Of a DNA stretch of 51,194 bases, positions 12,740 to 47,216 are shown in pieces. Position 1 is the first letter of the stretch. The number at the start of each line of letters is the position of its first letter. The position numbers were made by a program, and so were the translations under genes. The notes beneath the pieces are model-generated. The model worked only from the letters and a program-made list of their open reading frames with translations. It was not told where the DNA came from and did not search any database. The DNA comes from Patescibacteria group bacterium (lineage in GTDB: Bacteria > Patescibacteriota > Dojkabacteria > JAKAPS01): positions 1 through 51,194 of the forward strand of contig JANWIC010000021.1 in the NCBI GenBank assembly GCA_025450075.1, in the 5' to 3' direction.

Positions 12740-13108
12740 TTAATTAAGCATCGTAAGTGTTAACATTTCCTGCTCTTGTTTTAATGTATTGTTTACTTCA
12801 CTAACTGTCTCATTGAGTATGACGTCTGCTTCAGCTGGTAATTGATTTACAGTATCTATGACAATTTCCCGGATATGCCTATTGACTCTTCGTGAACTAA
12901 CAAAAATCGGTAATAATTGATTATCTATTTGTTGGAGATAAATTTCACCATTTTTGTTGATAAACAGAATTGGAAATGTATCAAATAAGGTTGTTTCTCC
13001 ACTTCGGGTCGTAATTGTGATTGGATTAAGTGATGATAATATCAATTCAATATTTCTTTTAACGATATTAGATTGATGAGGTTCATCTAGATATGTATCT
13101 CGAAACAT
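12740..13108 (-). CDS. Small orphan protein, 122 aa
   Basis: Soluble protein with alternating strands and helices, not recognised. The core F-P-I-L-F-I-N-K-N-G-E-I (residues ~45-56) has a counterpart, Y-Q-F-I-V-F-I-N-Q-E-G-E-I, in the next gene, so the two are probably distant paralogues. No signal peptide, membrane segment or metal-binding motif. It is on the same strand as its neighbour, 61 nt away. Confidence 0.5.
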   Translation of the reverse strand: MFRDTYLDEPHQSNIVKRNIELILSSLNPITITTRSGETTLFDTFPILFINKNGEIYLQQIDNQLLPIFVSSRRVNRHIREIVIDTVNQLPAEADVILNETVSEVNNTLKQEQEMLTLTMLN

Positions 13109-13169
13109 AATGGAAAAATGATGTTTCGTGATAGTACAAGATAATTTGAAAAATGTAAAGAAGAAAAAA

Positions 13170-13589
13170 TCAATTAAGATTAACTCCGCTTCTTACTATT
13201 CCTTCTTCACTGTCTGAAACTTGTAAACGTACTGCCTTTTCAAGAAGAGTTACATATAATATTGACCGTGCCATAGGGGTAAGCAGCATAACATTAAATC
13301 CATCTACGAATATACGAGAAATGGTAATACCATCCAATTGTTCTCGAACATATTGAAGGGGAAGCAAAATATACTTTTCTAAGGGATCTTCATTGATCTC
13401 TCCCTCTTGGTTTATGAATACAATAAATTGATACGTTGTTTCACTTCTTGGATCAACAATTAAAAATCCCAATCTATTTAAAACACCATCCAATACCATT
13501 ATATTTTCTAAAACTGTAGGATTGGAAGTTAATTTCTCAAGTTCATTGAATGTTGGGCCTAACCCTTCACCTTGATTAAATTCTCTCAT
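13170..13589 (-). CDS. Small orphan protein, 139 aa, probable paralogue of its neighbour
   Basis: Soluble and acidic, not recognised. It shares the F-I-V-F-I-N-x-x-G-E-I strand-turn with the 122-aa protein at 12740-13108, followed in both by a helix and the pair I-x-x-I-(F/V)-(V/I)-D. Together with the remnants at 12396-12547 and 13613-13756 it forms a tight cluster of four related-looking small frames, two whole and two broken. That pattern is typical of a recently amplified and decaying accessory family. Confidence 0.5.
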   Translation of the reverse strand: MREFNQGEGLGPTFNELEKLTSNPTVLENIMVLDGVLNRLGFLIVDPRSETTYQFIVFINQEGEINEDPLEKYILLPLQYVREQLDGITISRIFVDGFNVMLLTPMARSILYVTLLEKAVRLQVSDSEEGIVRSGVNLN

Positions 13590-28664: not shown

Positions 28665-29000
28665 CTACACTTTGATTTCTGTTGTTCCCCCTTCTGCCGG
28701 AGTGATAGCAACAACAATTTCTCCACTCCCTTGAATTACATACGGGTTACCTTCTTCAAGGTACAAGATATCATCTTTTTTTAAAATCACGCTTTCATTA
28801 TTATAAGTAACAGAAAATTCTCCTAAGATTACATATATAGCTTCTGTTTGACTTCGATTTATCGCGACACCTTCCTTTGGATACCGTTCCCCATTCATTT
28901 CAACATGTGCAAAAAAAACTCGCTTATCAAGTGATGGTAAATAAGTTGTTACCGTTGCACCGCCACTAATAGGTCGAGGAGATTGTTTAAATGTTTTCAT
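28665..29000 (-). CDS. Cupin-domain protein
   Basis: 111-aa single cupin barrel. The central part (T-E-A-I-Y-V-I-L-G-E-F-S-V-T then I-L-K-K-D-D-I-L-Y-L-E-E-G-N-P-Y-V-I-Q-G) follows the cupin_2 pattern, but the usual metal-binding His pair of motif 1 is missing (Q-T-E-A instead), so it may bind a ligand rather than act as a metal enzyme. It starts immediately after the M24 gene (no gap) and closes the four-gene operon. Role in that pathway unknown; binding, isomerisation or epimerisation of the product would all suit the fold. Confidence 0.7.
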   Translation of the reverse strand: MKTFKQSPRPISGGATVTTYLPSLDKRVFFAHVEMNGERYPKEGVAINRSQTEAIYVILGEFSVTYNNESVILKKDDILYLEEGNPYVIQGSGEIVVAITPAEGGTTEIKV

Positions 29001-30185
29001 TTAATAAGTAATAAAATACATAGATTCTTGTTTACTTGTAGTTACTTGAACACTATTATTTTTTACTAATAAATTGATCTCACTTCTAATACCAAATTCC
29101 CCAGGTATATATACTCCCGGTTCTATTGTCCCCAGGTGATTATTCATAATTTGTCGGTCATCTATGTTTTCATAATTATCAAAATGTACCAAGTTTCCAT
29201 GTACAAAGGTGCCTAAGCTGTGACCCAATCTATGGGTAAAATACTCTCCATAGCCATCTGCATTTATTGAATCTCTTGCAGCTTTATCCACTTCCCAACC
29301 ATAAACTGGCTCTCCTTTTTTAATTCTTTTTTCTAATAGTTTTACAGCTGTATCTCTTCCTCGAAGAGCAGAATTAAATGCATTTTCAATTTTTGTAGGA
29401 AGTTTATATCCACGATAGAACATCCATGTTATATCAGCATAAATACTTCCTGTTTCCTTCAGTTTTGCCCACATATCAATCAATAGCAAATCTCCTTTTT
29501 TAAATGGAAGAGAGTTATCTTTGGTAGGTAAATAATGTGGTCGAGCAGCATTTGCATTTATATTAATTTCAGGCTCGTAAATAGTTTCCATATTTTTCTC
29601 TGCAGTAATCCTTAAGATTGCTTGTTGAATGGAATATTCAGAAACCTCTTTACCTTTTCGAAGATTACTTTCAACTTCAGAAATAGCATCTTTTCTAATT
29701 TCATCTAACAAAACAGCAGCCTTCAGATGTGAATCTACTTGCTGGTCGTTTAAGCCACCTACTTCTTGAAGAAGATTTCCAGATGAAATGACATCGATTC
29801 CTAGTGACTTTACTACATCTATTATTCCAGCATCCACTTTAGAAATATGAGGTATTTTGCTTTGTGGAGAATACTCCATTGCAATAACCTTAAACTTACT
29901 CAGCACTTCCTTTGTCAAAGTTAAAAATTCATCATAGCTATGATATGTTAACTCGTTAATCCTAAGATCTGAAAATCCCCCATCTACACCACTATGAATT
30001 AATTTGGGAGAATCATTATTAGGAATAACTAGAAATGTTCTTCTAGATGCAATAATTTTTTCTTCAATAAAATTATCAAAAAATTCATTTCTATCAATAA
30101 ATTGATAAATTACCCATGCATCAATTCTGTTTTGTTTTAAATATACCTGGGCTTTTTGTATTTTTTCTTGTAGAGATTTTTTCAT
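29001..30185 (-). CDS. M24-family peptidase (Xaa-Pro aminopeptidase/creatinase fold)
   Basis: 394-aa 'pita-bread' metalloprotein with the creatinase-type N-domain (~1-150) and a catalytic domain with all five metal ligands: Asp237 (L-L-I-D-M-W-A), Asp251 (Y-A-D-I-T-W), His322 (R-L-G-H-S-L-G-T), Glu355 (T-I-E-P-G-V-Y) and Glu369 (I-R-S-E-I-N). It is therefore probably an active hydrolase that cuts an N-terminal residue, often before Pro, or a related C-N bond. It is the third gene of an operon with two paralogous unknown proteins and a cupin, so it may trim or break down the small peptide-like product they handle. Confidence 0.85.
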   Translation of the reverse strand: MKKSLQEKIQKAQVYLKQNRIDAWVIYQFIDRNEFFDNFIEEKIIASRRTFLVIPNNDSPKLIHSGVDGGFSDLRINELTYHSYDEFLTLTKEVLSKFKVIAMEYSPQSKIPHISKVDAGIIDVVKSLGIDVISSGNLLQEVGGLNDQQVDSHLKAAVLLDEIRKDAISEVESNLRKGKEVSEYSIQQAILRITAEKNMETIYEPEININANAARPHYLPTKDNSLPFKKGDLLLIDMWAKLKETGSIYADITWMFYRGYKLPTKIENAFNSALRGRDTAVKLLEKRIKKGEPVYGWEVDKAARDSINADGYGEYFTHRLGHSLGTFVHGNLVHFDNYENIDDRQIMNNHLGTIEPGVYIPGEFGIRSEINLLVKNNSVQVTTSKQESMYFITY

Positions 30186-30232
30186 ATATAAAATGACTAA
30201 ATTAAGAATTTACTATTAATTTCCTTTAAAAC

Positions 30233-31705
30233 TTATTCTCGACCTCCTTCGTAACCACCTTGAACCCTTATGTTAGCTGATCCAGTATATGCGCATGCAA
30301 GACCTTCAACTGCAGTCCCATCCCCTGTAAGAGTAATAGCATTCTCATTCCAATGTTGCATAATCCAGTTATGCATTGCAATATATGTTCCTGCATCATT
30401 AGCTAATTCCTGGGAAATAGTATCATTATTTACTGGAAGCCCTTTTCTAGGTAACCAAAAATCTCTTATCATTGGTAGGCGTTGACTTTCATGTCTTCGT
30501 CGTGCATTGACTAATCCTATTTCTCCACTTCGGCTTACGTACTCTTTTTTACCAATTTCTACTAACTTTTTCCATGTCTCATACCCATTTACTAAAAGAT
30601 TGGTTACTCCTATATACCTGGCAATTGGGGTCAAAGAAGAATTTGAAGTACCTATCAACCTAAGATCATAACTACCGGGCGTTCTTCCGGGACTTATTTC
30701 TATTGTTGTATCTTCATTATATTCTTCTTTAATTATTTGTTGTAAAGCTTGGAGTATAAGTAATCCGCTTTTATTTGTTCTTTCATTAAATGCTTCAATA
30801 CTTGGCATTCCTCTTAAAGCTCCATCATATGCTTCAAAATCTCCTAATGCGAAAGTTATATCTACTGGTATTCCTCTTGCATGGAGTAATGGTAATATAG
30901 CACGAAGTCCATCTAGAGTATTTTGTGCCGTCCAAGGAATATTGGTTCCTAATTCAGTTCCATCCACAAATTTTATGGAATTTGAAGATGGATCCCAAAT
31001 ATATTCATCATGAGGACACGTTGGTATTACTATTTGTAATCTTTCATGCTGTGCAATAACTCTTTCAATCATTTGATTGATTCGATAGATAGTATGTCCA
31101 CCGGGATTGACCATAAAATTCATTCCTGGCTGTATAACATATTCAATTCCAGTGAAGTCGGTAAATCTTCTTCCAAAGGGACTACGATAGTATTGGTCAA
31201 ACCATTGCGAAGAGAAATGAAGCTCTCTTGAGATACCAGTTTCAGCAAGAATGCTATTTGTAAAATCTCGTAACATTTTTTCAGTCATTCTATCAACCTC
31301 TACCTCGTTTGCTAGGTAAAGAACATCATATCCCCTGTTCTCCCCTATCCAATGAGGCTTTTGTGCTTGAGTAGATAAAGGATTTCTGGTATATCTCTTA
31401 TCGCGATGTGTCAAAAATGGCATAGTCGCAATCACAACTCTTTTGATATCCCCAATTGGATAATCAGAAATATCTTCTCCATTTTCAATAACTATAACAT
31501 TTACTTTTCCATTATAATTTTTCCTTTCGAAAAAAGTTTTCCCATCAGGTCCAATTTCTGTTTGCCTTTGTTGTAGAGCGTTTAATAAATGCTCAGTTAT
31601 CGGATCATTTTGATACAATACTAATTCAATTGACTGTAAAGGAGGTCTAGTTTCAGTTTCATTAGTAATAATACCTGTTTCTGATTTTATTGAATTTTTG
31701 TTCAT
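30233..31705 (-). CDS. Unknown ~490-aa protein, paralogue of the preceding gene product
   Basis: I do not recognise this family. The C-terminal ~290 residues align by eye with the neighbour at 31735-33255. Shared points: W-F/Y-x-x-Y/F-x-x-x-P-F-x-R, then I-V-I-P-T-C-P-x-D, N-T-L-D-x-L-R-x-x-L-P-x-L, F-A-x-G-D-x-E-x-Y, a G-Y/F-x-T-W segment, and a C-terminal R-V-x-G-G-Y-x-G-G. The invariant Cys, Asp/Glu and His/Asp positions look like a catalytic site. No signal peptide or membrane segment. A remote likeness of the P-T-C-P strand and the following helix to isocyanide synthases (DIT1/PvcA) crossed my mind but is too weak to use as a call. Confidence 0.6.
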   Translation of the reverse strand: MNKNSIKSETGIITNETETRPPLQSIELVLYQNDPITEHLLNALQQRQTEIGPDGKTFFERKNYNGKVNVIVIENGEDISDYPIGDIKRVVIATMPFLTHRDKRYTRNPLSTQAQKPHWIGENRGYDVLYLANEVEVDRMTEKMLRDFTNSILAETGISRELHFSSQWFDQYYRSPFGRRFTDFTGIEYVIQPGMNFMVNPGGHTIYRINQMIERVIAQHERLQIVIPTCPHDEYIWDPSSNSIKFVDGTELGTNIPWTAQNTLDGLRAILPLLHARGIPVDITFALGDFEAYDGALRGMPSIEAFNERTNKSGLLILQALQQIIKEEYNEDTTIEISPGRTPGSYDLRLIGTSNSSLTPIARYIGVTNLLVNGYETWKKLVEIGKKEYVSRSGEIGLVNARRRHESQRLPMIRDFWLPRKGLPVNNDTISQELANDAGTYIAMHNWIMQHWNENAITLTGDGTAVEGLACAYTGSANIRVQGGYEGGRE

Positions 31706-31734
31706 AAATTATAATTATGTAAACAAAGGAGAAG

Positions 31735-33255
31735 TTAATTTCCACCTATATACCCACCTTCAACTCTTAAAGTTGCTGATTGCAAAACTTCGCTTCCAAT
31801 CTTTTCAATGCTACTTGCATCGCCGGTTATCACTAATCCATTCCTACTAATCGCCATAGCGAATGTATGTAAAGCGACATAGTTAGCCATGTCTTTCATA
31901 AATTCTTCTCTAATAAGCTCCTCTGTTGTTGGTAAATTTTTTTGCATGAGCCAGAACATGATCATTTGCTTTCTATTTTCAAAAGCTTCATCTACTAAAG
32001 ATCGGAATTTAGGATCATGCTCATATCTATTTCTAAAAACTTGAGCGGCATCTGGTAACATCTTTTCATTCCAGGTGTTAAAACCTCCTTGTATAAATCT
32101 GGTAATGCCTTGTACTATAATTTCCGGTTCCCCGTTTGAACTGGAAATTTTTATTACATTTGTCTTGCAGGCATTGCTTTCATCTTGAGATTGTTCTTCG
32201 ACTACATTATATTCGCCTGGCCAAATTGATTTTAAAATTGCTTGAGCATGATTCGCAATTGTCCTTTGAGTGATATTTAAATCTCCAATAAATTGGTCAA
32301 TAGTTTTTCCCCTAGTATAACCTGCGTAACCTTCGTAATCTCCTGTCGCAAAGGTTATTCTTGGAGTTATTCCTTGTGCTTTTAACATTGGAAGAACTAC
32401 ACGCAGTGCATCTAAAGTGTTCATGTGTGTCCAAGTAAGTTTTCCTTCCGGATCTTCTGTAGTAGTTGGTAGGTATTTTGTTTGTCTCAAAGATTCAATC
32501 CAATAAGCACTATCAAATGGGCATGTTGGAATTACAATTTCAAGCCTACCTGTTTTTCTAGCTTCATTTAAAACTGCATCTATTCTTTTTCTTTCTTCAT
32601 CAGAGGGTGATATAACTAAACTTAAACCCTCTATTTGAGCTGGAGATCCGCCACTTGTTGGAAATGTTCGCGTAAAAGGATTCTTTTTAAAGTTCTTATA
32701 CCACGAAGTCGGTAAAACAGATGCAAAACGTCTATCAGCATCTGAGACAATCACTCCTACTAAATCTTTCCTTACTCCATCTCCCTTAGCCTTGCCATTT
32801 TTTGCAACAACATTTCCATTTATAAAATATTGACCATCTATATCTACACCATTATCGATCCAGAGTGGAATTTTTCTACATTTAGTCCTATCTGGAGTGT
32901 AGTTTGTTGTTTGGTTATTTAAAACTGCAGTTGCCAATATTATTTTTGTTGCAGGATCCCCCGTCAAGTTTATTTCTGAAAGTTTCATACCTTTATTAAG
33001 TACAATTACTTCAACTTTTATTGGAGGCTCTTTTTTATTAGCAACAGTTAATATTCCTTCAAGATACCCATCTTCCCCAGGCATTAGATTACTACTCCCA
33101 TACAGAGCTTTGTTAATAATGTCAAGGTTATCATCATCTTCAGATATAATAATTTGAAGAGTATGTGAGCATGGAGATAACTCAAGAATTGAAGAATATT
33201 CTATTTCATAAGTTGCCCGTCTTTCAACAGTTTGATCTTCATTGGTTATTGACAT
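31735..33255 (-). CDS. Unknown ~506-aa protein, first gene of an attenuated operon
   Basis: I take the ATG at 33255 (M-S-I-T-N-E-D-Q). The longer frame up to 33312 would read through a terminator-like hairpin. The protein pairs with the next gene as a diverged paralogue: they share I-V-I-P-T-C-P-F-D, N-T-L-D-A-L-R-V-V-L-P-M-L, F-A-T-G-D-Y-E-G-Y and the final R-V-E-G-G-Y-I-G-G, while the N-terminal ~200 residues differ more. Paralogue pairs encoded side by side often form a heteromer. Function unknown; its partners (M24 peptidase, cupin) suggest small-molecule or peptide chemistry. Family not recognised. Confidence 0.6.
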   Translation of the reverse strand: MSITNEDQTVERRATYEIEYSSILELSPCSHTLQIIISEDDDNLDIINKALYGSSNLMPGEDGYLEGILTVANKKEPPIKVEVIVLNKGMKLSEINLTGDPATKIILATAVLNNQTTNYTPDRTKCRKIPLWIDNGVDIDGQYFINGNVVAKNGKAKGDGVRKDLVGVIVSDADRRFASVLPTSWYKNFKKNPFTRTFPTSGGSPAQIEGLSLVISPSDEERKRIDAVLNEARKTGRLEIVIPTCPFDSAYWIESLRQTKYLPTTTEDPEGKLTWTHMNTLDALRVVLPMLKAQGITPRITFATGDYEGYAGYTRGKTIDQFIGDLNITQRTIANHAQAILKSIWPGEYNVVEEQSQDESNACKTNVIKISSSNGEPEIIVQGITRFIQGGFNTWNEKMLPDAAQVFRNRYEHDPKFRSLVDEAFENRKQMIMFWLMQKNLPTTEELIREEFMKDMANYVALHTFAMAISRNGLVITGDASSIEKIGSEVLQSATLRVEGGYIGGN

Positions 33256-33272
33256 AAGAACGAATTTAAAAT

Positions 33273-33320
33273 AAAAAAATCTCCTTTCGGAGATCTGGAT
33301 GTAAGTAAACAAATATCTCC
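33273..33320 (-). promoter_or_regulatory. Attenuator-like leader of the four-gene operon
   Basis: The leader has three complementary blocks on the minus strand: GGAGAT (33315-33320), ATCTCC (33289-33294) and GGAGAT (33279-33284). The last two form a short hairpin with a GAAA-type loop and seven T (33273-33279), a terminator. The first could pair with the middle block and prevent it. The preceding GTTGTAGCTTCTGCGGAG only loosely recalls a T-box and lacks the TGGN bulge, so the sensed signal is unknown. Confidence 0.6.
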
Positions 33321-33403
33321 GCAGAAGCTACAACCTAATAAAAGGGAGTAGAATAGCTGCGTTAATAATTGTATTTACAGTTTTTGTACACATAGTGAAC
33401 GGT

Positions 33404-33433
33404 ATTATATACCCATCATATATTTTTTGTCAA
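33404..33433 (-). promoter_or_regulatory. Strong promoter of the four-gene operon
   Basis: Perfect TTGACA (33428-33433) and TATAAT (33404-33409) on the minus strand, 18-nt gap. About 140 nt of leader RNA separates it from the first start codon. It is divergent from the DHH-gene promoter. Confidence 0.75.
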
Positions 33434-44325: not shown

Positions 44326-45357
44326 CTATTCGTTGGGATTTGGATTATCGTTGCTTTTGCGATATCTATTTAGGGCTATAAGGACGACTTGTTCCACAAG
44401 ATCCTCAAAAGTCATTCCCTCAAAACTAGCCATCATGGTAAGTGTATTATTTAGCCCATGAGTATTCGGTCCTATTCCTGGGTTGTAGTTAACCTCAAGT
44501 AAATAAATATTCCCTTGATCATCTACCCTAAAATCCATCCTCGCATAATCTCTACAGTCTGTAGCTGTAAATGCAATCCTACTATATTCAACCAGTTTAT
44601 CAATCATTTCTTGAGGTAAATCTGCTCTGACCATTTGTTCTTTTTTACCGCCCCATTTATATTCATAAGAACGGATTTGCTGTAACTCAGAAGGAGCATC
44701 TTCAAATAAAAACTCTAAAGGTGGAAATACATGTAATTCGGAGCCGTTGCCAAACATTCCGACTGATATTTCTCTACCTCTTATAAACTGCTCAACTAAG
44801 GTCGGTTGCCCATATCTTTGAATTGATTCCTGAACTTTTCTATACAGTTCTTCTCTATTTGTAACCACGCTATCCTCATAGATTCCTATACTGGCTTCTT
44901 GTCTTACTGGTTTTACAATTAAGGGAAATCTCAATCCTCTTCTTAAAGGCTCAGTCCCTTCTCTGAATAACTGATGGGGAGCTGATGGTATTCCATATGT
45001 TTTTAGTACCAGTTTGGTTTTTTCCTTATCTTGAGAAAAATTCATATTCAAAGCGGATGCTCCCGTAAAAGGAATTTTTAATCCTTCAAGAATCGCTGGA
45101 ACGACAGTTTCGTTTGTATTTCCCCCACCGAATGCCTCTGCAAGATTTAAAACTATTCCAATGGTGGATTTTTGCAATCTCAATTTCTCCCAAACATCTA
45201 AGTCGGCAAGCATGGTATCAGTATCATAACCTCTTGCTCTTAGCAGCTCAGTTACCAATGGAACTATAATATCAATTTCTTGCTCACTTATTAGGTCGCT
45301 TTCGACTCCTGTTTCTAATGTTGTAGCTTTATTGTAAAGAATTAAAACATCTGGCAT
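44326..45357 (-). CDS. D-Ala-D-Ala ligase-like ATP-grasp enzyme
   Basis: 343-aa ATP-grasp ligase. N-domain with V-L-N-L-A-E-A-F-G-G-G (~75-85) and F-T-G-A-S-A-L-N-M (~106-114); central lid P-L-I-V-K-P-V-R-Q-E-A-S-I-G-I (~142-156); metal ligands in M-D-F-R-V-D-D-Q-G-N-I-Y-L-L-E-V-N-Y-N-P-G (~268-288). Cell-wall Ddl has the lid G-S-S-x-G-I/V and N-x-x-P-G-x-T, and this protein varies at those sites (N-P-G-I-G-P), so a dedicated peptide ligase is as likely as a cell-wall Ddl. It is the third gene of the island trio; the C39 gene starts 5 nt upstream. Confidence 0.8.
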   Translation of the reverse strand: MPDVLILYNKATTLETGVESDLISEQEIDIIVPLVTELLRARGYDTDTMLADLDVWEKLRLQKSTIGIVLNLAEAFGGGNTNETVVPAILEGLKIPFTGASALNMNFSQDKEKTKLVLKTYGIPSAPHQLFREGTEPLRRGLRFPLIVKPVRQEASIGIYEDSVVTNREELYRKVQESIQRYGQPTLVEQFIRGREISVGMFGNGSELHVFPPLEFLFEDAPSELQQIRSYEYKWGGKKEQMVRADLPQEMIDKLVEYSRIAFTATDCRDYARMDFRVDDQGNIYLLEVNYNPGIGPNTHGLNNTLTMMASFEGMTFEDLVEQVVLIALNRYRKSNDNPNPNE

Positions 45358-45362
45358 ATGAT

Positions 45363-45866
45363 TTATTTATAAATTGCAATTATTTGTCTAATAATTAACT
45401 CATCAGGTTTTATATATTTTCCTGTAAAGTCAAACCATACTGTCATGAAATCTTCTTTTTCCAATTTTCTTCTACCACCTATTTCAGGATCTTGTAGGCA
45501 GATATAATCTTCATCAATTCCTTCAACAACAGAATAGTGTCCATCGGCGACATCTTCATCTGTGTAATCAATTCTTCCCCTGGTAAACCAATTCACAATA
45601 ACTGGAATATCTTTTTGTAGCCATTCTTCAATATCTTCAATATTGCTGTTGTTTTTTATTGCGACCTTAAATCCTAAGCTTTCAGCGGCATTCCTGATTC
45701 CTTGATCATCAGTTCCCAAGTCTTCATTTGTCCCACAAAGCTTAGCTAATTCATTTTCAGATTTATCAATTCCATAATATGATAGAACAATTTTGAGTGA
45801 TGCAGGCCCACACATACTTGCATTTAAAGTTTCTTGATATGGTTTTATGTTTAAAAATTTCTTCAT
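45363..45866 (-). CDS. C39-like cysteine peptidase
   Basis: 167 aa with the full papain-like triad of C39-type domains: Gln11, Cys19 in S-M-C-G-P-A-S-L, His110 in D-G-H-Y-S-V-V and Asp126 in L-Q-D-P-E. C39 peptidases often cut after a Gly-Gly leader of bacteriocins, or act as stand-alone peptide hydrolases or transferases. No ABC transporter is fused or nearby. It lies between the two ATP-grasp genes (gaps of 5 and 3 nt), so it probably processes the same peptide product. No signal peptide, so it is cytoplasmic. Confidence 0.8.
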   Translation of the reverse strand: MKKFLNIKPYQETLNASMCGPASLKIVLSYYGIDKSENELAKLCGTNEDLGTDDQGIRNAAESLGFKVAIKNNSNIEDIEEWLQKDIPVIVNWFTRGRIDYTDEDVADGHYSVVEGIDEDYICLQDPEIGGRRKLEKEDFMTVWFDFTGKYIKPDELIIRQIIAIYK

Positions 45867-45869
45867 AAA

Positions 45870-47216
45870 TTATCTGTTTTGTAATCCAAAAGTATTTAAA
45901 AGTTTTTTATATATTTCTAATGCTTTTTCTCGATCTTCACCTATTATAATAAATCCTATCTTGGGTTGTCTTCTATTTACAATAGAGACTACAACTCCTT
46001 CTCTCTGACCTTGTATAGGGTATAGTATATCATGTAACCTCGCTAAAATATCAGGTGTACTTAAATTGATATTTCCATATTCAAAATCATCACTCGATAA
46101 GGCATAACAATTATTTTCCCAATTGTCACCTATAAGAAACTTTGTTGCATCAAATACATGTGTTCCTCCTGTCCTTCTCATGTTGGTTTCGATTGGGTAA
46201 GGGATTCCATTACCTGAAGTAACAAAATCAATATCAAAAAAGCCCCTATAACCAAGTAATCTGAACCTGTTACCAATCCTTGTGGAAATTTCTCTTATTT
46301 GCGTTGCAAGATCTTCCTTCATAATTCCTCTTCCTATTGCTACACCAAGGAAAGTCCCGTTAGAGCCTATTTCTTGATTGCAAAGATATGTGATTACAGT
46401 ATTTCTATCAGAAACTAATAATTCTGATGATGGAGAGTAAGCTTCTGAATCTCTTTGTGATTCAATTAACTCTTCAACCAAAATTAAATCATCATTCCAT
46501 ATTGGCGTACTTTCAAATTCATGATTAATATACTTAATAAGTTGCCTTGTATTTTTAAATTGTTCTCTTCGCAACATGAGTAAACCCCAACCAGATTCTC
46601 CGAAATTTGCTTTGAGTACACAGGATCTTCTTCGACTAAAAAACCAGGTTGCAACTCTCAGAGCTTCATCTTTTGTCCTACATGGTATACTTTCAGGAAT
46701 AGCAATCTGAGGATTATCTATTTTTCCAATTTCAACACGTGAGCCAACCTTTGAATCCAAATAAGTAACTAACCAATCGCCATATTTAGCCGGTCTTTCA
46801 GGCACTATAAAATCTAATCCTTCTTTTTTAAGTGTTTCTACAAGAGCTAAAAACTTTTCAGTTACGCAATATGGAGATAATGTAATCCCTGGGTTTGCTC
46901 TAATGATATCCACAAGTTGCTGAAATAATTGTCTGTCTTCTAATATTGCATCTGACAAGCTCACATTTACAGCATGTGGAGAAAGATTAGATATATTTTC
47001 ATACCCCAATGTCCTTCTATTATGTTCAAATAACCCTTGGTCAATAGGATAAGGGGTTATTACAATCTTATCGTCTCCTTCCCATAACAAAGTTCTGTCG
47101 CATAGATTATGTTCGATCTGTACTCTTGCTTCACGATCAGTTGCAGATGCTATTTTTTCTATAGAAGGCTCAAATGCTTCAGCAATATTTGCAGTAATGA
47201 TAGTTTTTATAGGCAT
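45870..47216 (-). CDS. PGM1-like ATP-grasp peptide ligase
   Basis: 448 aa. An N-terminal 'pre-ATP-grasp' region (~1-170) precedes an ATP-grasp core with K-A-N-F-G-E-S-G-W-G (~202-211), the Mg ligands in Y-R-G-F-F-D-I-D-F-V (~323-332) and the family ending I-E-T-N-M-R-R-T-G-G-T-H-V-F (~342-355). In PGM1 (pheganomycin ligase) and kin this last motif reads E-I-N-x-R-x-G-G-T-T-H-P, and such enzymes add amino acids or short peptides to a nucleophile. It is the first gene of the trio. A promoter-like TTTCAA / TATAAT (17-nt gap) and a small hairpin TTCTC-GAGAA precede the ATG. Confidence 0.7.
   Translation of the reverse strand: MPIKTIITANIAEAFEPSIEKIASATDREARVQIEHNLCDRTLLWEGDDKIVITPYPIDQGLFEHNRRTLGYENISNLSPHAVNVSLSDAILEDRQLFQQLVDIIRANPGITLSPYCVTEKFLALVETLKKEGLDFIVPERPAKYGDWLVTYLDSKVGSRVEIGKIDNPQIAIPESIPCRTKDEALRVATWFFSRRRSCVLKANFGESGWGLLMLRREQFKNTRQLIKYINHEFESTPIWNDDLILVEELIESQRDSEAYSPSSELLVSDRNTVITYLCNQEIGSNGTFLGVAIGRGIMKEDLATQIREISTRIGNRFRLLGYRGFFDIDFVTSGNGIPYPIETNMRRTGGTHVFDATKFLIGDNWENNCYALSSDDFEYGNINLSTPDILARLHDILYPIQGQREGVVVSIVNRRQPKIGFIIIGEDREKALEIYKKLLNTFGLQNR

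Follow-up and report, generated by a model that had tools for sequence, protein, structure and literature searches.

Gene content of the operon and its leader

The stretch of DNA analyzed here (the window) comprises 51,194 nucleotides of contig JANWIC010000021.1 (C21) in the 1.11 Mb genome of a Patescibacteria group bacterium of the Dojkabacteria lineage (GCA_025450075.1). On its minus strand, it carries an operon of four tandem open reading frames (ORFs) with small gaps, encoding, in operon order, products of 525, 490, 394, and 111 amino acids (aa). The first two, hereafter paralogues A and B, are the main subject of this study; the true start of A is probably the ATG at 33255, which shortens the protein to 506 aa. 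Paralogy of A and B is clear, with 28% identity along 494 aa (E 7e-48), and the motifs IVIPTCPxD, FAxGDxExY, and GGYxGG recur in both, as an earlier model-made interpretation of the letters and ORF translations (the sequence-only reading) had recognized. Neither protein matched anything in Pfam, NCBIfam, PHROGs, PADLOC, or the PDB sequences. The further statement that the pair belongs to no nameable family thus stands for the libraries tried; in its place can be put a distant family whose fold is recognizable and whose regulation centers on amino-acid starvation, in the main branch for histidine.

The third gene encodes an M24 metallopeptidase whose D, D, H, E, E ligand pattern is legible in the sequence, in agreement with the intact ligands described earlier. 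Its closest PDB chain, the Xaa-Pro dipeptidase 5xev, aligns over the whole M24 length, and by sequence the protein is a prolidase-type dipeptidase. It differs from other M24 prolidases in its linkage to a paralogue pair, which was not seen elsewhere. The fourth product is a small cupin that matched Cupin_2 just under the cut-off and has no relative among PDB sequences; on reading, it lacks the motif-1 histidine, as previously noted, and the motif-2 histidine as well.

The sequence-only reading had also taken the four genes to form a candidate undescribed small-molecule pathway, and here our results diverge from it. No second genome was found to carry the four-gene unit; no close homologue of the pair turned up in 97 relatives, where a single-sequence search returned the window pair alone, or in 380 genomes of the phylum, and pattern scans of 85k genomes and of viral contigs retrieved nothing. 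M24 and cupin genes adjoin none of the distant family loci described below, and the M24 protein itself is of the dipeptidase type.

The operon is preceded by a promoter that agrees with the consensus at every position and by a leader containing a terminator and a competing antiterminator (Table 1), both as first proposed, so that conditional expression of the operon is very probable. The leader folds 4.85 standard deviations below shuffled sequences, and its four segments allow mutually exclusive 1:2, 2:3, and 3:4 pairings. The sequence-only reading did not report that the leader also holds a 21-codon ORF, encoding MCTKTVNTIINAAILLPFIRL, which overlaps segment 1 and whose ATG lies ~11 nt past the -10 hexamer, which would place the transcript start almost at the ATG. 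Because of this ORF, the leader is an attenuator that depends on the ribosome and is laid out like those of trp and his; translation of the peptide is inferred from this geometry. In masked folding, the terminator forms without a ribosome or with one at the stop codon, the antiterminator forms with a ribosome stalled at codons 9-12 or 16-17, and the terminator remains when the stall is at codons 14-15.

The leader peptide, which has no homologues, contains Ile-Ile, Ala-Ala, and Leu-Leu doublets, with four Ile and three Leu among 21 residues in an AT-rich genome. It contains no His codon, and histidine can therefore not be assumed for the window copy; the leader probably senses another amino acid, for which the three doublets supply the candidates. 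An Rfam scan of the leader gave chance matches only and thus no known riboswitch.

Table 1. Features of the window operon and its leader
Feature	Position	Strand	Basis or description
Sigma-70 type promoter, TTGACA-18-TATAAT	33404-33433	minus	12/12 consensus positions
Leader peptide ORF, MCTKTVNTIINAAILLPFIRL*	33328-33393	minus	Sequence and small-ORF scan; coding inferred from attenuator geometry
Attenuator	33277-33361	minus	Fold z -4.85; terminator scan; masked folds
Attenuator segment 1	33361-33357	minus	CGCAG
Attenuator segment 2	33321-33315	minus	CGGAGAU
Attenuator segment 3	33294-33288	minus	AUCUCCG
Attenuator segment 4	33284-33279	minus	GGAGAU
Terminator hairpin, then U-run	33296-33277	minus	Terminator scan; antiterminator competes
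Paralogue A	31735-33255	minus	506 aa; family domain ~31735-32634
Paralogue B	30233-31705	minus	490 aa; family domain ~30233-31129
M24 metallopeptidase, prolidase type (by sequence)	29001-30185	minus	PF00557 E 3e-33; PDB 5xev E 1.7e-53
Small cupin without the usual metal-ligand histidines	28665-29000	minus	Cupin_2 6e-6, below cut-off

The window pair as a probable divergent branch of an undescribed family

Among the 380 phylum genomes, a profile of the pair weakly matched a 257-aa protein at locus L006 of genome G211 (E 0.035); two further weak matches (L004 and L005) were rejected as spurious, being VIT1/CCC1-like membrane proteins. Used as a query, the L006 protein recovered paralogue A (E 2.4e-6), a tandem pair on contig C8 of the window's own genome (1.7e-12), and members in other genomes of the candidate phyla radiation (CPR). 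Iterated searches and a genome-wide scan from this protein yielded family loci in Doudnabacteria, Woesebacteria, WWE3, Amesbacteria, Uhrbacteria, Komeilibacteria, and others; one locus labeled Bacteroidetes (L048) is probably a mis-binned CPR contig. The family is rare, occurring in 10 of the 380 phylum genomes, and none of the 20 members compared with Pfam had a match. Viral contigs searched with the short-member alignment gave nothing, nor did tblastn with a short member against phages and plasmids, with window B against phages, or with window A against plasmids.

The family core is a ~285-aa protein with the motifs FTCSTIN, IGNTDPYYIY, YAxQG, ILLQNEKPS, and YPFGVDN, which adjoins a second member at all loci that do not run into a contig end, either one of 390-645 aa upstream or one of ~250 aa downstream. 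Two-member units, which make up the majority of loci, comprise the window pair, the C8 pair, L045-L051, L053, and L054, while single members of the other type occur at L034, L035, L036, L072, and L073, and L052 is cut at a contig end. At L073 (6383-9133), a divergent family-like protein of 407 aa is followed by a 502-aa protein that has a phosphoribosyltransferase-like motif, LALDDNLVSGGT, and no Pfam match.

In the family tree, A and B form one clade with 100/100 support outside the three clades of short, long, and ~250-aa members, and the window duplication is therefore its own. With a hidden Markov model (HMM) built without window sequences, A (E 0.0025) and B (E 0.21, both per 10,000 proteins) ranked directly after the true members and aligned in register. 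We consider it likely, though not certain, on these sequence comparisons that the window pair is a lineage-specific, duplicated, and divergent branch of this undescribed Patescibacteria family. That it is instead unrelated, with nothing but short motifs and a common Rossmann fold shared with the histidine-linked loci described below, would explain the long branch of the pair (4.6), the weak scores with the window-free HMM, and the mere 3% probability given by hhalign for the two window sequences against the short members. This we judge quite improbable, in view of the single-sequence match of the L006 protein to A, the rank and register of A and B with the window-free HMM, the identical Foldseek classes obtained for window B and a short member, and the two-gene, attenuator-led layout that the window shares with the family.

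Histidine-linked control in the main family

Upstream regions point to histidine at 14 of 17 independent loci, through T-box leaders at four, His-His leader ORFs at nine, and a TrpR-type gene at the one remaining; the three loci without such a link are L036, L073, and the window. The T-box-like leaders (L047, L049, L050, and L035) contain UGGGACCGCG or UGGGACCACG. For L047, Rfam T-box RF00230 matched at E 6.7e-4, below the curated score, with a UGGG acceptor match that suits the C73 discriminator typical of tRNA-His. Genes for tRNA-His lie within the L047, L050, and L034 operons, and HisRS is encoded by the third gene, after the pair, at L047, L049, and L050. Among the His-His leaders, the predicted peptides MTTSSLNKISFQISHHTHGEYVLRH (C8 pair), MKIITSANKIHHPSMLLGDKGLS (L048), and MNFRLAYNTPHHPTALARTAGVEVI (L051) are followed in each case by a terminator hairpin or a hairpin resembling one; the second family pair of the window's own genome thus sits under a His-leader attenuator. 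Overall, a His-His leader ORF precedes 9 of 17 family loci as against 4 of ~398 other genes (Fisher ~2e-11), a control count that is approximate and includes HisRS itself as one match.

TrpR-family genes adjoin seven loci (L033, L034, L046, L052, L053, L054, and L072). In Firmicutes, genes of this kind encode HisR (YerC), the histidine repressor (PMC9413887). At L046, L052, L053, and L072, it is the upstream TrpR-family gene itself that ends in the His-His codons, and in the first three an intrinsic terminator stands ahead of the next gene; in such an arrangement, the end of the repressor gene may also serve as the leader peptide for histidine attenuation. The TrpR/HisR-like genes ending in these codons lie at L046 3737-4057, L052 7633-7932, L053 7606-7905, and L072 8971-9300. 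Two CPR genomes that lack the family have a TrpR-family gene directly upstream of that for HisRS (L115 7973-9552 and L116 7517-9381), suggesting that hisS in CPR is under HisR-type control. The window genome has a TrpR-family gene of its own (L113 8653-8970), which adjoins a gene for an HD-domain-like protein and neither family pair.

Histidinol dehydrogenase (HisD) was absent from all 40 CPR genomes tested and present in 13 of 14 controls, and canonical histidine biosynthesis was rejected as the context on this ground. Given the histidine link at 14 of 17 loci and this absence, the canonical family looks to be induced by histidine starvation in histidine auxotrophs. The three kinds of control found here (HisR of the TrpR family, His T-boxes, and His attenuators) are those of the Firmicutes histidine regulons (PMC9413887), whereas the targets of the latter are biosynthesis and transport genes rather than an unnamed protein pair in HisD-less genomes. 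Our literature search found no paper on histidine control in CPR.

Fold and candidate active site

The model of a short family member (predicted local distance difference test, pLDDT, 88.9; predicted template modeling score, pTM, 0.88) matched the isonitrile synthase PIsnA (9dh4, 5.4e-5), a cyclodipeptide synthase (CDPS; 5ocd, 3.7e-4), and TyrRS (2cyc, 3.7e-3) among PDB structures in Foldseek, all with probability 1.00 and with TM-scores of only ~0.5. The model of window B, poor in its N-terminal half and with a core pLDDT of ~80, independently gave PIsnA as its top match (2.8e-3, probability 1.00), along with CDPS (0.98) and TyrRS (0.96). The structural search proposed in the sequence-only reading thus returned the same three classes for window B as for the short member; a search of a viral structure library led to TyrRS and a phage cyclodileucine synthase. 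The predicted fold is the Rossmann fold of class-Ic aminoacyl-tRNA synthetases, CDPSs, and isonitrile synthases.

A Cys, a Tyr, and a Glu/Asp are each kept in register in 26 of 26 domains, window A and B included. The Cys ends the first Rossmann strand, the Tyr lies on a late helix, and the acidic residue follows the next strand. In CDPSs, the catalytic residues are the acylated Ser37, Tyr178, Glu182, and Tyr202 (PMC7566563), and by order and topology the three invariant residues would correspond to Ser37, Tyr178, and the Tyr202 region. The equivalence is one of topology only, because profile-profile comparison with genuine CPR CDPSs fails (probability 0.5 to 12%, no sequence homology). Set against the four catalytic residues, Cys replaces Ser in 26 of 26 domains, Tyr is retained, the Glu four residues past it is Gly, Ala, or His, and no Tyr stands at the topological place of Tyr202. 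Genuine CDPSs above the Pfam cut-off occur in 5 of 371 CPR genomes (L074-L078), one of which (G343) also carries the new family; since these do not align with it, the proposal that the family is itself a CDPS family was rejected.

A CDPS-like role is a separate matter. In it, a subunit or the pair would take aminoacyl groups from charged tRNAs onto the cysteine and join two of them into a dipeptide product. The likeness lies in the order of the Rossmann fold, with a nucleophile-type residue after strand 1, a late-helix Tyr, and a catalytic strand next; Foldseek gives the short member probability 1.00 to CDPS, and the Cys and Tyr stand where CDPSs have the acylated Ser and Y178 (PMC7566563). 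The presence of HisRS and tRNA-His in some operons would also fit, as would the production of His-containing cyclodipeptides by a Parcubacteria CDPS (PMC5816076). However, a consumer of charged tRNA needs the opposite of starvation control, profile similarity to CDPSs is lacking, PF16715, searched at E 10, has no match in the genome of the window, and the family differs further in its Cys, its missing Glu at Tyr+4, and its paired paralogues. We regard this role as unlikely.

Comparison with class-Ic TyrRS and TrpRS reveals a common fold and a local Y-x-x-Q-G followed by a strand and Q/N-E-x-P, whereas no HIGH or KMSKS-type ATP signature was seen in the family and the anticodon domain is lacking. 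A helper of histidyl-tRNA supply, acting on tRNA-His or HisRS, with the window pair serving another tRNA likewise, would make sense of this fold, of the tRNA-His and HisRS genes inside the same operons, and of T-boxes and attenuators, which sense charged tRNA. Yet neither gene stands beside the pair at most loci, nearly all CPR genomes lack the family and still charge tRNA-His, and no HIGH-like ATP-binding motif was seen; such a role is rather unlikely.

The isonitrile synthases (DIT1_PvcA, PF05141; PIsnA) supply the best structural match of both models, which recover the PvcA/IsnA fold, and by analogy the family could condense an amino group with a pentulose phosphate. Against this, the window genome shows no PF05141 match at E 10 and the 20 family members compared have none in Pfam, the Fe/2-oxoglutarate oxygenase partner typical of such clusters is not beside the pair, the TM-score is only ~0.5, and starvation control is left unexplained. 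We therefore consider this chemistry improbable; our literature search found no paper on isonitrile synthase structure.

A tentative model of amino-acid recovery under starvation

The reading we favor, though with less than even confidence, is that the window pair belongs to a starvation-induced family of acyl-transferring or hydrolyzing enzymes that recover an amino acid. The window operon would normally be terminated early; when one charged tRNA becomes scarce, a ribosome would stall in the leader ORF, the antiterminator would form, and all four operon proteins would be made. The main family branch would apply the same logic of attenuation to histidine. The two family proteins probably act as a complex of two related subunits, in which an amino-acid-like group may be bound in a TyrRS/CDPS-type pocket and an acyl intermediate may form on the invariant cysteine; the amino acid would thereby be recovered or transferred in cells unable to make it. 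In the window operon, the prolidase would finish its release from a dipeptide, and the window copy would most simply be a second, divergent pair regulated by a different amino acid.

Control by starvation, in auxotrophs, speaks for the recovery or supply of histidine rather than the spending of charged tRNA, and the combination of a CDPS-like pocket with a fixed cysteine makes release or transfer of an amino-acid group by way of an acyl-enzyme the most economical mechanism. Aspartoacylase-type hydrolases are encoded near L048 and L053 and, together with the window prolidase, suit a common theme, the liberation of amino acids from small conjugates.

Several points weigh against this reading. 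Fold alone gives no choice among hydrolysis, transfer, and synthesis, and the structural matches have the modest TM-scores given above; sequence homology to CPR CDPSs is lacking, and hhalign barely connects the window pair with the short members. The window leader has no histidine-linked control, and the prolidase and cupin accompany the family nowhere else. A more far-reaching version, in which presumed auxotrophs would make histidine, or its imidazole ring, through the pair as a minimal and undescribed pathway with isonitrile-synthase-like chemistry on a pentulose phosphate, the window pair being a copy derived to serve a second amino acid, strikes us as a long shot.

Patescibacteria are rich in families without name or function. 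Here, one such family gains a fold class, candidate active-site residues, and a metabolic address, with several unrelated regulators, in genomes that lack histidinol dehydrogenase, pointing to a shortage of histidine, and its function is therefore directly testable. The family may also illustrate how reduced bacteria that depend on hosts obtain amino acids in short supply, and the idea would recur in the window pair, retuned to another amino acid.

Other features of the window

Elsewhere in the window, at 44326-47216, a C39-like peptidase gene is flanked by two genes that by eye appear ATP-grasp-like, an arrangement that may be a small cluster for peptide tailoring. At 12740-13589, two neighboring small ORFs of comparable length look like another unnamed pair.

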